The translations under genes were made by a program, and so were the position numbers. Shown here in pieces: positions 46,245 through 50,796 of a stretch of DNA of 64,000 bases (positions are counted from its first letter, which is position 1; each line of letters starts with the position of its first letter). The DNA comes from Flavimobilis rhizosphaerae. Its GTDB lineage: Bacteria > Actinomycetota > Actinomycetes > Actinomycetales > Cellulomonadaceae. Location of the stretch: assembly GCF_014852685.1 (NCBI RefSeq), contig NZ_JACZDF010000001.1, positions 186,001-250,000 of the forward strand, given 5' to 3'. The notes under the pieces are model-generated. The model was not told the DNA's origin. It ran no database searches and saw only the letters and a program-made list of their open reading frames with translations.

Positions 46245-47615
46245 TCAGCCGCGGCGGGTGACGAGGCGCTTGAGGAAGTGCCGGACGACAGGCCCGAGCT
46301 GGTCGAACTCGATGAGGAAACCGTCGTGCCCGTGCTCGGACCGCAGCACCTGCAGCGGCCACGCGCCCGGCACGTTGCGCGTGATGCGCTCGGACTCGAT
46401 CGGCTGGAAGAGCCGGTCGGAGTCGACCGCGACGACGAGGGCCTTCGCGGTGATCGACGCGAGCGCGGACTCGACGCCGCCGCGGTCGCGCCCGAGGTCG
46501 TGCGTGAGCATCGACTGCGTGAGGACGAGGTAGGAGTTCGCGTCGAAGCGGCTCGCGAGCTTGTGCGCGTGGTGGTCGAGGTACGACTGGATCGCGTACC
46601 GGCCTCCGCGCAGCGGGTCCTCGGCGTTCTGCGGGATGCGACCGAAGCGTCGGTCGAGCTCGGTCGCCGAGCGGTAGGTGGCGTGCGCGATCTGCCGGGC
46701 GATGCCGAGGCCGACGTGCGGCCCGACGCCGTCGGCGTTCTCGTAGTAGTCCCCGCCGTTGTAGTGCGGGTCGGCGAGGATCGCCGCGATCTGCGGGTGC
46801 GCCCACGCGATCTGGTCGCCCGTCGTCTGCGCGCCGGACGCGATGATGCCGATCGACTCGACGTCGACGCCGGCCTCGGGCCCGCAGAGCGCCCACTCGA
46901 GGGCGCGCAGCCCGCCCATGGATCCGCCGACGACGAAGTGCCACGACGTGACGCCGAGCGCACGGGCCAGCGCGATCTCCGCGCCGACCTGGTCGCGGAC
47001 GGTGAGGTGCGGGAACCGCGAGCCCCACGGGCGTCCGTCGGGCGCGGGGGATGCTGGTCCGGTCGAGCCCTGGCAGCCGCCGACGACGTTGGGGGCGACG
47101 ACGAAGTAGCGGTCGGTGTCGATGGGCGCTCCGGGGCCGACCATCTGCGACCACCAGCCGGGCGTCGGGTGGCCGGGCTCGGCGTCGCCCGTGACGTGCG
47201 AGTCGCCCGTGAGGGCGTGGAGGACGAGGACGGCGTTCGAGCCGTCGGGCGCGAGCGTGCCCCACGTCTCGTACGCGACGGTGACGTCGGGGATCTCGAG
47301 GCCCGACTCGAGCTCGAGCGTGCCGACGTCGCAGAAGCGGCGGCGACCGGGCTCGTCGCCCTGCTGCCATGCGCCGCTCGGCGCGGGCTGCGGGGCGGGG
47401 AGGACGGGCACGTCCGTGCCGGGGCGCGGCGTCGCGCCCGCGAACGGCGGGGCGAGGCGGCGCGGGCGGGGTGCGGGCGTCGTGCTCACGGCACCATCAT
47501 CCGACGGAACCGAGGCAGGGCGTGCCGACGCGGCGCCGTCGGGCATGACCGTGCCGTCCGGGAACGTCCCGGGGTGGGCCTGGCCGTCGCTCGTCGGCGC
47601 CGCGTCGGTACACAT
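46245..47615 (-). CDS. metX: Homoserine O-acetyltransferase, 456 aa
   Basis: Transfers acetyl from acetyl-CoA to homoserine, first committed step of methionine synthesis. Alpha/beta-hydrolase fold with VLHALTGDSHVTG, nucleophile Ser in VVGGSMGGLRALEW, Asp in VVAVDSDRLFQP, and His in SEHGHDGFLIEF. The ATG at 47615 overlaps the metY stop; an in-frame GTG at 47489 would remove a PDGT/MPDGA-rich N-terminal tail of 42 residues and is a credible alternative. Coupled to metY. Confidence 0.92.
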   Translation of the reverse strand: MCTDAAPTSDGQAHPGTFPDGTVMPDGAASARPASVPSDDGAVSTTPAPRPRRLAPPFAGATPRPGTDVPVLPAPQPAPSGAWQQGDEPGRRRFCDVGTLELESGLEIPDVTVAYETWGTLAPDGSNAVLVLHALTGDSHVTGDAEPGHPTPGWWSQMVGPGAPIDTDRYFVVAPNVVGGCQGSTGPASPAPDGRPWGSRFPHLTVRDQVGAEIALARALGVTSWHFVVGGSMGGLRALEWALCGPEAGVDVESIGIIASGAQTTGDQIAWAHPQIAAILADPHYNGGDYYENADGVGPHVGLGIARQIAHATYRSATELDRRFGRIPQNAEDPLRGGRYAIQSYLDHHAHKLASRFDANSYLVLTQSMLTHDLGRDRGGVESALASITAKALVVAVDSDRLFQPIESERITRNVPGAWPLQVLRSEHGHDGFLIEFDQLGPVVRHFLKRLVTRRG

Positions 47616-48958
47616 CAGGCGGTCGCCTTGGCGCCCGTGCGCAGCGCGGCGACGGCCGCGAAGCCGCGGCCGAGGTCCGCGAGGATGTCGTCGATGTGCT
47701 CGAGGCCGACGGAGAGGCGCACGAGGCCGGGCGTCACGCCGGAGAGCGCCTGCTCCTCGGGCGAGAGCTGCGCGTGCGTCGTCGACGCGGGGTGGATGAC
47801 GAGCGAGCGGACGTCGCCGATGTTCGCGAGGTTCGAGTGGAGCTCGAGCGCGTCGACGAACGCGCGGCCGACCTCGGCGTCGCCGTCGAGCTCGAACGCG
47901 AGGACGGCGCCCGCACCGCGGGGGAGGTACTTCTGCGCCGTCGCGTGCCACGGGCTGGACTCGAGTCCCGCGTAGTGGACGGTGGTGACGGCGTCCTGCG
48001 CCTCGAGGAACGCCGCGACCTTCTCCGCGTTGGCGACGTGGCGCTCGATGCGCAGCGAGAGGGTCTCGACGCCCTGGGCGATGAGGAACGCGTTGAACGG
48101 GCTGATCGACGCGCCGACGTCGCGCAGCAGCTGGACGCGCGCCTTGAGGATGTAGGAGAGGTTGACGCCGAAGAGGCCGTCCTTGCCGAGGTCGCGCGCG
48201 TAGACGAGGCCGTTGTACGTGACGTCGGGCTCGTTGAAGTCCGGGAAGCGCTCGGGGTCCTGGCCGAAGTCGAACGTGCCGCCGTCGACGATGACGCCGC
48301 CGATAGAGTTGCCGTGGCCGCCGAGGAACTTCGTCGCCGCGTGGACGACGATGTCGGCGCCGTGCTCGAAGGGGCGCAGCAGGTAGGGCGTCGCGATGGT
48401 GTTGTCGACGATGAGGGGGACGCCGACCTCGTGCGCGGCGTCGGCGACTGCACGGATGTCGAGGACGTCGGAGCGCGGGTTGGGGATGGACTCGGCGAAG
48501 AACGCCTTCGTCGTGGGGCGGGCGGCGGCGCGCCACTGCGCGGGGTCGTGCGGGTCGTCGACCCACGAGACCTCGATGCCGAGCTTGCGCAGCGTGTGGC
48601 CGAGGAGGTTGTAGGTGCCGCCGTAGAGCGACGGGCTCGCGACGATGTGGTCCCCCGCGCCCGCGAGGTTGAGGATCGAGAACGTCGTCGCGGCCTGGCC
48701 CGAGGCGAGCAGGAGCGCGCCGACGCCGCCCTCGAGGGAGGCGATGCGGTCCTCGACGACGCCGGTCGTCGGGTTGCCGAGGCGTGTGTAGATGGGGCCG
48801 AGGTCGGCGAGCGCGAAGCGTGCGGCGGCGGTCTCGGCGTCGGGGAAGACGAAGGACGTCGTCTGGTAGATCGGCAGCGCGCGGGCGCCGGTCGTCGGGT
48901 CGGGCGTCTGTCCGGCGTGGATCTGGCGGGTCTCGAAGGACCAGTCGGCGTTGCTCAT
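47615..48958 (-). CDS. metY: O-acetylhomoserine sulfhydrylase, 447 aa
   Basis: PLP enzyme that joins sulfide with O-acetylhomoserine to give homocysteine. Cys/Met-metabolism fold: TRQIHAGQTPDPTTGARALPIYQTTSF, YTRLGNPTTGVVEDRIASLEGG, SGQAATTFSILNLAGAGD, PLP lysine in HAATKFLGGHGNSIGG, and SVGLEHIDDILADL. Expected length. Expressed with metX behind a leader holding a Cys-containing uORF at 49135-49158. Confidence 0.95.
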   Translation of the reverse strand: MSNADWSFETRQIHAGQTPDPTTGARALPIYQTTSFVFPDAETAAARFALADLGPIYTRLGNPTTGVVEDRIASLEGGVGALLLASGQAATTFSILNLAGAGDHIVASPSLYGGTYNLLGHTLRKLGIEVSWVDDPHDPAQWRAAARPTTKAFFAESIPNPRSDVLDIRAVADAAHEVGVPLIVDNTIATPYLLRPFEHGADIVVHAATKFLGGHGNSIGGVIVDGGTFDFGQDPERFPDFNEPDVTYNGLVYARDLGKDGLFGVNLSYILKARVQLLRDVGASISPFNAFLIAQGVETLSLRIERHVANAEKVAAFLEAQDAVTTVHYAGLESSPWHATAQKYLPRGAGAVLAFELDGDAEVGRAFVDALELHSNLANIGDVRSLVIHPASTTHAQLSPEEQALSGVTPGLVRLSVGLEHIDDILADLGRGFAAVAALRTGAKATA

Positions 48959-49134
48959 GGGTGGCTCCAGGTGGGTGTTCGCGGCCTGCGGGTGGGCGGG
49001 CGTCGAACGGTGTCCTGGTGCCGTGGTGCGACTCGCATGATCGTCGTCGCTGCACGGACGGGTGCGGTCCCGTCGTCGCCCTGGGGGCGTGTCCGCACCG
49101 GGGCCCGGCGTGGCCGGGCGCGAGTGCGGGGGTG

Positions 49135-49158
49135 TCAGCGACACATTCGACGGATCAT
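49135..49158 (-). CDS. Leaderless uORF encoding MIRRMCR, upstream of metY-metX
   Basis: On the minus strand, ATG 49158 opens seven codons (MIRRMCR) and a TGA, in a leader of about 200 nt before metY. TAGAGT (-10, 49166-49171) ends 7 nt before the ATG, so the mRNA should begin with this uORF. A cysteine codon near the end fits cysteine-responsive uORF attenuation reported for sulfur genes in actinobacteria. No SAM riboswitch core was recognised in the leader. Confidence 0.55.
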   Translation of the reverse strand: MIRRMCR

Positions 49159-49165
49159 GGCGGCC

Positions 49166-49171
49166 ACTCTA
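49166..49171 (-). promoter_or_regulatory. -10 element (TAGAGT) of metY-metX
   Basis: Minus-strand TAGAGT 7 nt upstream of the uORF ATG. It sets transcription start at the uORF and a leader of about 200 nt. Confidence 0.55.
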
Positions 49172-49246
49172 GGCGGACGTGGTCACGGGGTGGAACGGGC
49201 CATCCGCATGATGAGATCTCTGTGGCTGGCGGGGCTCCTGTGGCTC

Positions 49247-49314
49247 ATGTGACTGATGTGACTCGCGATGTTCCTGAGGTGGGAGTTCACAACGGGATCG
49301 AAGGCGACTAGCCT
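49247..49314 (+). promoter_or_regulatory. Promoter of the NlpC/P60 gene with upstream direct repeat
   Basis: TTCACA (49286-49291), 17 nt, TAGCCT (49309-49314). Upstream, ATGTGACT occurs twice with a 9-bp period (49247-49254, 49256-49263). A two-component regulator of cell-wall hydrolases such as MtrA could bind there. The regulator assignment is speculative. Confidence 0.5.
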
Positions 49315-49347
49315 CGTCGTGCACCGCTGTCCCGTCTCGGAGGCTCC

Positions 49348-50796
49348 ATGTCCCGCCAGTCCCGGATCCCCAGGTCCGCGTCCGCGCTCGTCGCGGCGGC
49401 GCTCGTCCTCGGTCTCGCCGCGCCCGCCGCGCTCGCGGACCCGAGCGACGACGACGTCGCGTCGGCCCGCGCGAGCGAGGCCGCAGTCGCGGGATCCGTG
49501 GCCGCGATCGAGGTCGAGCTCGCGCGCCTCAGCACCGTCGCCGACGAGGCATGGGCGCGGTCCGCGACCGCAGGTGAGCGCTACCTCACGGCGCAGGTCG
49601 CGCTCGACAGCGCGCAGGCCGCGGCGGCCGCCGCGGACGCGAAGCTCGCCGACGCCCTCACGACCATGGAGGCCTCGCGCAAGGTCCTCGCCGGCATCGC
49701 GCTCGAGCGCTACCGCTCGGGCGGCTCGATCCAGACCCTCGAGGCCGTCCTCACGGCTGACGGCATCACCGACGTCGTCCGCCGCACCTCGTCGCTGCGG
49801 ACCGTCGGCTCCGCCGCCGACGCGGCCGTGCAGCAGTTCCGGGCCGACGCCCTCGTCGCCGACGTCCTGCGGACGGACGCCGCGAACGCCCTCACGGCCG
49901 CGCAGGATGCGGCGACGGAGGCCGAGAAGGCGCGGGCGGAGACAGACCGCCTCACCCAGGCGGCCCAGGCCGCGGCCGATTCTGCGACGGCGCGCCGCGA
50001 CACGCTCATCACCCAGCTCGCCGCTGCCCGCAGCACGACCGTCGAGGCCGAGCGCGCACGCCAGGACCGCATCGACCGTGACCGCGAGCAGCAGCGCGAG
50101 GACCAGGCCGAGGCCGAGCGCGAGCCGTCGGACCCGCCGACCTCCCGCCCCACGCCGACGACCCCGCCGACGACGCCGACGCAGGAGCCGACGACCGAGC
50201 CGACGCGCGAGCCCACGACCGAGCCGAGCCGCGAGCCGACGCGCGAGCCGACGACAGAACCGACGCGCGAGCCGACCCGCGAGCCGACGACCGAGCCGAC
50301 GACGGCCCCGACGGAACGGCCGACGCCCACCCCGACCCCGGCGCCGACGCGCACCCCGAAGCCCGAGCCGACGAAGCCGCCCACGACCGAGGCCCCGGGC
50401 CTCGGCACCGGCACCGCGGTCGGCAGCGCCGCCCAGGGCCGCAAGGCCGTCGCGTGGGCGCGCACGCAGATCGGCAAGATGTACGGCTGGGGTACGACGG
50501 GCCCCAACACGTACGACTGCTCAGGGCTCACGATGCGCGCCTGGGAGGCCGCAGGCGTCGGCATCACCCGGACGAGCCGCTCCCAGTACGTGCGCGTCAA
50601 GAAGATCAGGTACGCCGACATGCGCCCGGGAGACCTCATCTTCTGGGCGAACAACACCTCGGACCCGAACACGATCCGCCACGTCGCGATGTACACCGGC
50701 GGCGGCATGATGATCGAGGCCGCGCGCCCGGGCGTCCCGGTCCGGGAGGTCCCGGTCCGCTACGCGGAGACCATGGCCTACGCGGGACGTCCCTGA
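49348..50796 (+). CDS. Secreted NlpC/P60 peptidoglycan hydrolase, 482 aa
   Basis: Signal peptide 1-30 (cleavage after ALA), then a long coiled coil (about 35-250, Ala/Glu/Arg heptads) of the type that regulates RipA-like hydrolases. A Pro/Thr/Glu linker (about 263-350) contains ten EPT(T/R) tetrapeptides. The C-terminal NlpC/P60 domain (370-482) has Cys391 in YDCSGLTMRAW and His445 in IRHVAMYTGGG. It cleaves stem peptides outside the cell during division. Ends at a strong bidirectional terminator. Confidence 0.93.
   Translation: MSRQSRIPRSASALVAAALVLGLAAPAALADPSDDDVASARASEAAVAGSVAAIEVELARLSTVADEAWARSATAGERYLTAQVALDSAQAAAAAADAKLADALTTMEASRKVLAGIALERYRSGGSIQTLEAVLTADGITDVVRRTSSLRTVGSAADAAVQQFRADALVADVLRTDAANALTAAQDAATEAEKARAETDRLTQAAQAAADSATARRDTLITQLAAARSTTVEAERARQDRIDRDREQQREDQAEAEREPSDPPTSRPTPTTPPTTPTQEPTTEPTREPTTEPSREPTREPTTEPTREPTREPTTEPTTAPTERPTPTPTPAPTRTPKPEPTKPPTTEAPGLGTGTAVGSAAQGRKAVAWARTQIGKMYGWGTTGPNTYDCSGLTMRAWEAAGVGITRTSRSQYVRVKKIRYADMRPGDLIFWANNTSDPNTIRHVAMYTGGGMMIEAARPGVPVREVPVRYAETMAYAGRP
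50185..50304 (+). repeat. 12-bp tandem repeats encoding the EPT(T/R) linker
   Basis: Ten tandem 12-bp units of consensus GAGCCGACG(A/C)(C/G)C. They form the wall-spanning linker of the hydrolase. Confidence 0.85.

Follow-up and report, generated by a model that had tools for sequence, protein, structure and literature searches.

The genes metY and metX lie in tandem on the minus strand of the window, the whole 64,000-nucleotide stretch of DNA analysed here, and are preceded by a leader that opens with a seven-codon upstream open reading frame (uORF; Table 1). The uORF reads ATG ATC CGT CGA ATG TGT CGC TGA (MIRRMCR and a stop), and its ATG stands 200 nt from the metY start. Its exact 24-mer occurs once in the genome, and on both strands of the window it is the sole ATG that combines TANNNT 6-7 nt upstream with an ORF of at most 15 codons. 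The start of the metX ORF overlaps the metY stop (TGATG); because the NF047917 match starts only at residue 90 of 456, the true start of metX may lie further downstream. In 48940-49360 no site fits the -35/-10 consensus of sigma-70, and the promoter call therefore rests on the -10-like hexamer and its conservation.

Known regulatory RNAs were considered and rejected. An Rfam search of the window at the gathering score returned only a tRNA elsewhere and nothing in the metY leader, bearing out the earlier statement that no SAM riboswitch is recognised there, and two sets of related loci (8 and 5 examined) gave no Rfam match.

Table 1. Features of the metY-metX locus, in window coordinates
Feature	Position	Strand	Basis
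-10-like hexamer TAGAGT, 7 nt upstream of the uORF ATG	49166..49171	-	predicted leaderless promoter; TANNNT at 6-7 nt in 72/77 leaders
Seven-codon uORF MIRRMCR and stop, predicted start at or near +1	49135..49158	-	sequence, conservation, uniqueness in window
Segment 1, invariant CGAATGTG (Arg CGA, Met ATG, Cys codon bases 1-2)	49142..49149	-	77 metY leaders; CGA 27/27 in metY-found loci
Cys codon TGT, codon 6 of the uORF	49141..49143	-	sequence; folding position scan
Segment 2, CCGCAC (most relatives: GCGCAC)	49124..49129	-	leader comparison, folding
Candidate segment 3, GTGCGG, complementary to segment 2	49093..49098	-	picked by search for segment 2 complement; spacing from segment 2 shorter than in most relatives
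GACACCGTTCGACG, predicted long-range partner of segment 1 (-18.5 kcal/mol)	49001..49014	-	folding; common to one congener (L003)
Shine-Dalgarno GGAG of metY	48965..48968	-	sequence, leader comparison
metY, O-acetylhomoserine/O-acetylserine sulfhydrylase	47615..48958	-	Cys_Met_Meta_PP 5.4e-129; NF005872 744 bits (cut-off 703)
metX, homoserine O-acetyltransferase	46245..47615	-	NF047917 509 bits (cut-off 475); aligned from residue 90 of 456

Conservation and distribution of the uORF

Relatives of metY were collected through the protein and not through the uORF; matches occurred in 58 of 59 genomes, and the best 30 were kept as loci. A uORF of the form M-x(1-2)-[RKCM]-R-M-C-... was present at 27 of these 30 loci. 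The three metY loci lacking it (L009, L028 and L031) were also devoid of any Rfam match. Pattern-found loci were then added to the metY-found ones, giving 77 distinct leaders from 97 metY matches; three matches were dropped for lack of the core, and the others were duplicates (over the first 60 nt) or lay near a locus end. The sequence CGAATGTG was invariant across the 77 leaders, most of those beyond the 27 having been found with patterns that fix it; for this reason the codon counts given below rest on metY, winged-helix regulator and metN loci found through proteins. The distance from the uORF stop to metY in the leader set ranged from 125 to 259 nt (median 175).

The sequence-only reading had taken this ORF for a leaderless, Cys-containing uORF whose peptide should recur in related genomes. 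Its RMC part is indeed strongly kept, and TANNNT lies 6 or 7 nt upstream of the ATG in 72 of 77 leaders, while seven other offsets gave 0-2 of 77 each, suggesting a probably leaderless uORF. At the level of sequence comparison, conservation beyond chance confirms that the uORF is real.

Among 297 genomes of the order, 88 contained the pattern RNCGAATGTGYNGYTRA, as did 20 of 396 genomes in a phylum sample partly drawn from the same order, while its reversed control matched 2 of 297 and 5 of 396, respectively (counts read from tables). The uORF pattern occurred in at least 118 stretches. Among the matches listed, metY was next in 45, a winged-helix regulator in 60 and neither in 13; of these last, one (L141, Myceligenerans pegani) has metX, five are cut off with at most 368 nt of sequence remaining, and seven resemble chance hits, for which a rough uniform-base estimate gives about 7. 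The metY carriers named among the matches listed were Cellulomonas, Actinotalea, Isoptericola, Cellulosimicrobium, Demequina and Georgenia. Two genomes (G019 and L141) carry the uORF before metX rather than metY; in G019 it lies about 100 nt upstream of metX, and the best metY match is weak (4.1e-36). The leader upstream of metX in L210 and L141 is a short one, of about 100 nt; it holds segments 1, 2 and 3 together with a CGCACG a little ahead of the metX Shine-Dalgarno sequence and is perhaps the simplest form of the element.

A covariance-model search of 246 class genomes gave matches in 7 and no new target. Four leftover loci, outside the window's genome and two Microbacteriaceae genomes, were judged to be chance matches: inspection of L237 and L239 showed that the core is missing, and none was seen in L235 and L236. 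An ORF encoding MCHRMCS and a stop is present in L055, L056, L058 and L060, from four genomes of one genus; it ends some 14 nt upstream of a gene resembling IMP dehydrogenase (identified in L055) and is probably incidental. Separately, viral contigs contained one 54% relative of metY.

Predicted refolding of the leader RNA

Segment 1 (CGAAUGUG, within the uORF) is complementary to segment 2 directly after the stop codon. Such a complement just after the stop was significant against shuffles (p<=0.05) in 78% of the 77 leaders, compared with 1.3% for the remaining leader. Segment 2 reads GCGCACG in 57 of 77 leaders, and a complementary segment 3, CGTGCGC, is found further downstream in 42 of 77. 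The 1:2 pairing was kept in 88% of cells versus 16-53% when the segments were slid. There was no 1:2 covariation beyond shuffles (the paired cells were equalled by 116 of 500), and covariation cannot prove this helix because its 5′ arm, segment 1, is invariant.

The 2:3 pairing was assessed in several ways. In an alignment of 31 leaders, with groups hand-chosen from the 77, 81.6% of cells were paired, a level reached by none of 500 shuffles; the covariation score was equalled by 22 of 500 shuffles, and sliding by +2 columns gave a higher covariation score (0.086 versus 0.042). With free choice of partner in each leader, p<=0.05 was reached in 7.8% of the 77, the same as in a control stretch, with a mean p of 0.30 versus 0.46. 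A leader's own segment 2 and segment 3 scored higher than pairs swapped among leaders (14.9 versus 13.3; 0 of 5000 permutations, kinship being ignored). For the 21 leaders with a non-standard segment 2, p was 0.04 and the mean rank 0.53, with automatic segment choice failing for several.

Folding was computed with the bases under the ribosome masked, the edge being assumed to lie 15 nt past the first P-site base. Controls had shuffled linkers and intact segments, so that 1:2 lies outside their test. The analyses used subsets of the 77 leaders: 75 for accessibility, 54 for the three ribosome states, 52 plus 5 congeners chosen by another motif for a scan of ribosome positions, and 48 for segment 4; in the 54-, 52- and 48-leader sets segment 3 was picked by sequence motif and position.

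In the free state of the 54 leaders (control values in brackets) the mean probability was 0.77 (0.78) for 1:2, 0.06 (0.04) for 2:3 and 0.62 (0.41) for 3:4. A ribosome stalled at the Cys codon raised 2:3 to 0.56 (0.33) and left 3:4 at 0.22 (0.28), and with the ribosome at the stop codon 2:3 was 0.003 (0.005) and 3:4 was 0.62 (0.43). Upon stalling, 3:4 fell by more than 0.2 in 32 of 54 leaders versus 27% of controls. When the ribosome was moved along the uORF in 52 leaders so that CGA, AUG, the Cys codon, codon 7 and the stop occupied the A site in turn, the probability of 2:3 was 0.47, 0.49, 0.58, 0.14 and 0.003, respectively. This peak followed by a collapse indicates that the Cys codon is the last halt that leaves segment 2 free. 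Taken together, the calculations predict a three-state switch in which 1:2 and 3:4 form in the free RNA, 2:3 upon a Cys stall and 3:4 with the ribosome at the stop; mutually exclusive helices set by the ribosome position, a feature of trp-type attenuation, were thus predicted in silico in the relatives. Both sides of the pair are altered in the congeners L008 and L012 (CCGCAC/GTGCGG, compared with GCGCAC/GTGCGC in most relatives), and their leaders are predicted to switch as expected. The sequence-only reading had proposed regulation by stalling at the Cys codon: its premise gains from a predicted fold that tracks the ribosome stop, with an optimum at Cys in 52 relatives; cysteine has a competitor as candidate signal, since an invariant Met codon adjoins.

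The window's own leader folds differently. Without a ribosome, 2:3 is predicted at 1.0 and 1:2 at 0.0, as also in L003; in L029 the values are 0.66 and 0.09. Only the stop-codon state differs in the window, with 2:3 going to 0.0 and 3:4 to 0.81, the segment 4 partner lying within the first codons of metY. The distance from the start of segment 2 to that of segment 3 is 31 nt in the window and 31-38 nt across the window, L003 and L029, compared with 73-78 nt in L008 and L012, and the CCGCAC/GTGCGG pair of the former three was found only on looking for it. Because its segment 3 lies at another distance, it may differ from the relatives' element, and the model suggests that the switch logic is kept in the window at best in altered form.

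The near letter-for-letter preservation of the uORF, and an RNA after it that looks refoldable upon a pause at the Cys codon, lead us to regard the uORF as probably a switch that senses shortage of a sulfur amino acid, the signal being cysteine and possibly methionine. We consider it likely that the metY-metX leader is a ribosome-mediated, trp-like attenuator. Transcription would start at the uORF ATG or 1-2 bases from it, and the ribosome would translate MIRRMCR. If the uORF is completed, the ribosome at the stop would cover segment 2; after release segments 1 and 2 could pair in most relatives, and segment 3 would pair downstream (3:4), giving the low-expression form. If charged Cys-tRNA (perhaps Met-tRNA) is scarce, the ribosome would halt at Arg(CGA)-Met-Cys and cover segment 1, leaving segment 2 free; 2:3, which we infer to be the ON form, could then arise and metY-metX be expressed. 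Micrococcales would thus possess a compact, conserved candidate cis-regulator of methionine/cysteine supply; the leaders tested match nothing in Rfam.

CGA-AUG leaders upstream of other genes

Leader peptides with the same ending precede two further kinds of gene. Microbacteriaceae loci were found through a regulator protein, with any Arg codon allowed (39 of 40 genomes matched, 30 loci kept; titled carriers were Microbacterium, Agromyces, Leifsonia and relatives). The peptide ended in RMC-x at 28 of the 30 loci (27 CRMC-x and one RRMC-x) and in CRMSA at one more, and CGA-ATG was present at 29. Likewise, 30 of 40 metN matches were taken as loci, from Streptomyces-like genomes of one genus (L271-L300), so called for their metN context and resemblance to the published metL; the R-M of the leader was encoded by CGA-ATG in all 30, followed by Cys in 22 and Arg in 8. 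In these 8 the last Cys codon is now Arg (RMRAF), which may reflect a shift of signal. The published S. lividans metL leader belongs to the same CGA-AUG group.

CGA is a rare arginine codon, with a share of 2.2%, 3.8% and 1.6% in the metY, regulator and metN matches and 4 of 204 Arg codons in seven ORFs of the window. It is poorly decoded, through inosine wobble, and its decoding may be slow. This raises the question of why it was never swapped for a synonym in any leader examined. In the Microbacteriaceae leaders the last codon varies (Arg, Ala, Ser or Gly), and no conserved 3′ partner was seen when 14 of them were inspected by eye; pairing therefore does not seem to explain CGA.

Several further observations were made in the Microbacteriaceae. 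Loci including L072, L092, L096 and L241-L270 carry a conserved leader peptide like MTTNARPLSAQEANGTAGMMMPGRVGMCCRMCR followed by a stop, often of about 30 codons. The protein encoded downstream carries a Trans_reg_C winged helix, its N-terminal region has no Pfam match, and it is possibly a sulfur regulator under Met/Cys control. In L092, L106, L195 and others a palindrome around ATGATGATG lies in the leader-peptide coding sequence, just before the MCCRMCR part; since its arms change in step between loci (GCCGGC/GCCGGC in L195, GCCGAC/GTCGGC in L106, CCGGG/CCCGG in L092), either a hairpin or an operator is conceivable.

The CGA-AUG block links leader peptides as unlike as those of 7 and about 30 codons. 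A wider proposal, which we hold to be doubtful, is that a fixed codon block, CGA-AUG(-UGY), with which leader peptides end, is the basis of a single 'ribulon' for sulfur amino acids common to actinomycetes, with CGA priming the halts. In such a system a rare CGA in the P site would make ribosomes prone to halting at the Met and Cys codons, and even a seven-codon uORF that has a single Cys might then be a sensitive gauge. The block would govern metY/metX in Cellulomonadaceae and relatives and Met import in Streptomyces, and in Microbacteriaceae its target would be a winged-helix regulator that spreads the signal. If CGA does prime stalling, it would be a natural case of synonymous-codon choice as part of a sensor.

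Signal and output of the proposed switch

For the output step we favour premature termination without a U-tract, possibly by Rho, over unmasking of the Shine-Dalgarno sequence. No intrinsic terminator was found in the window leader (48940-49360), and four or more T follow segment 4 in only 3 of 48 leaders. The specific proposal that the switch controls Rho-dependent or other U-less termination in a C-rich leader, to which we give somewhat less than an even chance, is consistent with this absence of a U-tract terminator and with the composition of the 77 leaders (46% C and 29% G, for these leaders alone). Additionally, a 2005 survey proposed Rho for cys leaders lacking terminators (PMC1262725).

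Regarding the signal, cysteine is the likelier in the metY group and methionine a real alternative. A second Cys codon is found in 31 of 77 leaders and in 15 of the 27 metY-found ones, and a second internal Met in 1 of 77; the window uORF has one Cys codon only. A cysteine signal would make sense because the model that metY matches is a bifunctional O-acetylhomoserine/O-acetylserine sulfhydrylase, which includes the cysteine-forming O-acetylserine reaction. Conversely, shortage of Met-tRNA could halt ribosomes at the invariant CGA-AUG and leave the Cys codon secondary, an account that we rate below the cysteine one and well short of even but take seriously. CGA-AUG is the best-kept feature across all three target types (27 of 27 metY uORFs, 29 of 30 regulator loci, 30 of 30 metN loci), and Cys after it is missing from 8 of 30 Streptomyces-like metN leaders and one regulator leader. 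The targets are genes of Met synthesis and Met import, Met runs are present in Microbacteriaceae leaders, and a halt at AUG also yields 2:3 (0.49). However, the extra codons in metY uORFs are Cys and not Met, and folding slightly prefers the Cys halt (0.58).

The sequence-only reading had suggested that stalling could expose metY. As freeing of the Shine-Dalgarno sequence this was not predicted in the window, where its accessibility was 0.25 in all five ribosome states; for the Shine-Dalgarno sequence and AUG together it was 0.47 in the free RNA, 0.49 upon Cys stall and 0.54 at the stop. Translational attenuation in the mycobacterial style, where the ribosome-binding site of metY would be buried in the leader until a ribosome stalling on the uORF released it, is consequently an unlikely main output. 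The 54 leaders do lean towards it, as stalling raised mean accessibility by 0.054 (s.e. 0.016) versus 0.014 in controls and the free-state value was lower in real leaders (0.26) than in controls (0.35), and unmasking has a mycobacterial precedent according to second-hand description. Over 75 leaders, however, the gain was small (+0.027 versus +0.002), and only 3 of 48 leaders have a segment 4 whose end comes within 14 nt of the start codon or goes past it, namely the window, its congener (both within the first metY codons) and one other.

It is very improbable that the conserved segment serves to bind a regulator, as DNA or as RNA, and that the ORF is incidental: CGAATGTG is invariant even where a complementary 3′ partner is missing (18 and 25 of 76 leaders at two pairs), but the frame, the start 6-7 nt past the -10, a stop that follows at once and the choice among Arg, Cys, Ser and Lys are all kept, and the same peptide end recurs in much longer peptides before other genes.

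We found no description of the uORF, its association with metY or the CGA block in the literature searched, which was largely open-access, and the comparisons that follow draw on parts of the cited papers. The nearest relatives in kind are the mycobacterial polycysteine leaderless short ORFs (Canestrari et al. 2020, Mol Microbiol 114:93; via PMC9094748, PMC9031893 and PMC13236596), which place a leaderless short ORF with Cys ahead of sulfur genes, as is predicted here, and are expected to read Cys supply through ribosome speed. Those of the metY group differ in having seven codons (in the window), the CGA-AUG-UGY block, metY-metX as target and a home in Micrococcales. In place of consecutive Cys codons there is one in the window and at least two in 31 of 77 leaders, some non-adjacent, and folding prefers a 2:3/3:4 switch to unmasking of the ribosome-binding site.

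The Streptomyces lividans metL leader before metNIQ (about 28 residues, leaderless and, per its authors, methionine-dependent; PMC8079986) also precedes methionine genes and shares the C-terminal Arg(CGA)-Met(-Cys), its peptide ending in RCMCRRMCAF and a stop. Its conserved N-terminal part, MTTTS..R..ATEA..TPGARC, is absent from the seven-codon uORF, and the available portion of that account describes neither CGA nor a wider family. The Cys leader peptides that stand ahead of cys operons in Mycobacterium and P. acnes, and ahead of cbs in B. longum (PMC1262725), similarly have Cys codons close to the stop and no conserved terminator, with Rho suggested; unlike the metY uORF they have runs of Cys codons and precede other genes. 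The text of that survey contains no occurrence of metY or metX, and the part available reports no conserved structure before Met operons. Finally, the trp/ilv-type attenuators, such as those of C. glutamicum ilvBNC (PMC11857589) and the Corynebacterium ilvB uORF (PMC10272879), share with the predicted metY-metX switch a leader peptide and mutually exclusive helices picked by the ribosome position, and are set apart from it by the U-tract terminator, absent here, and by the regulatory codons, here Met and Cys.
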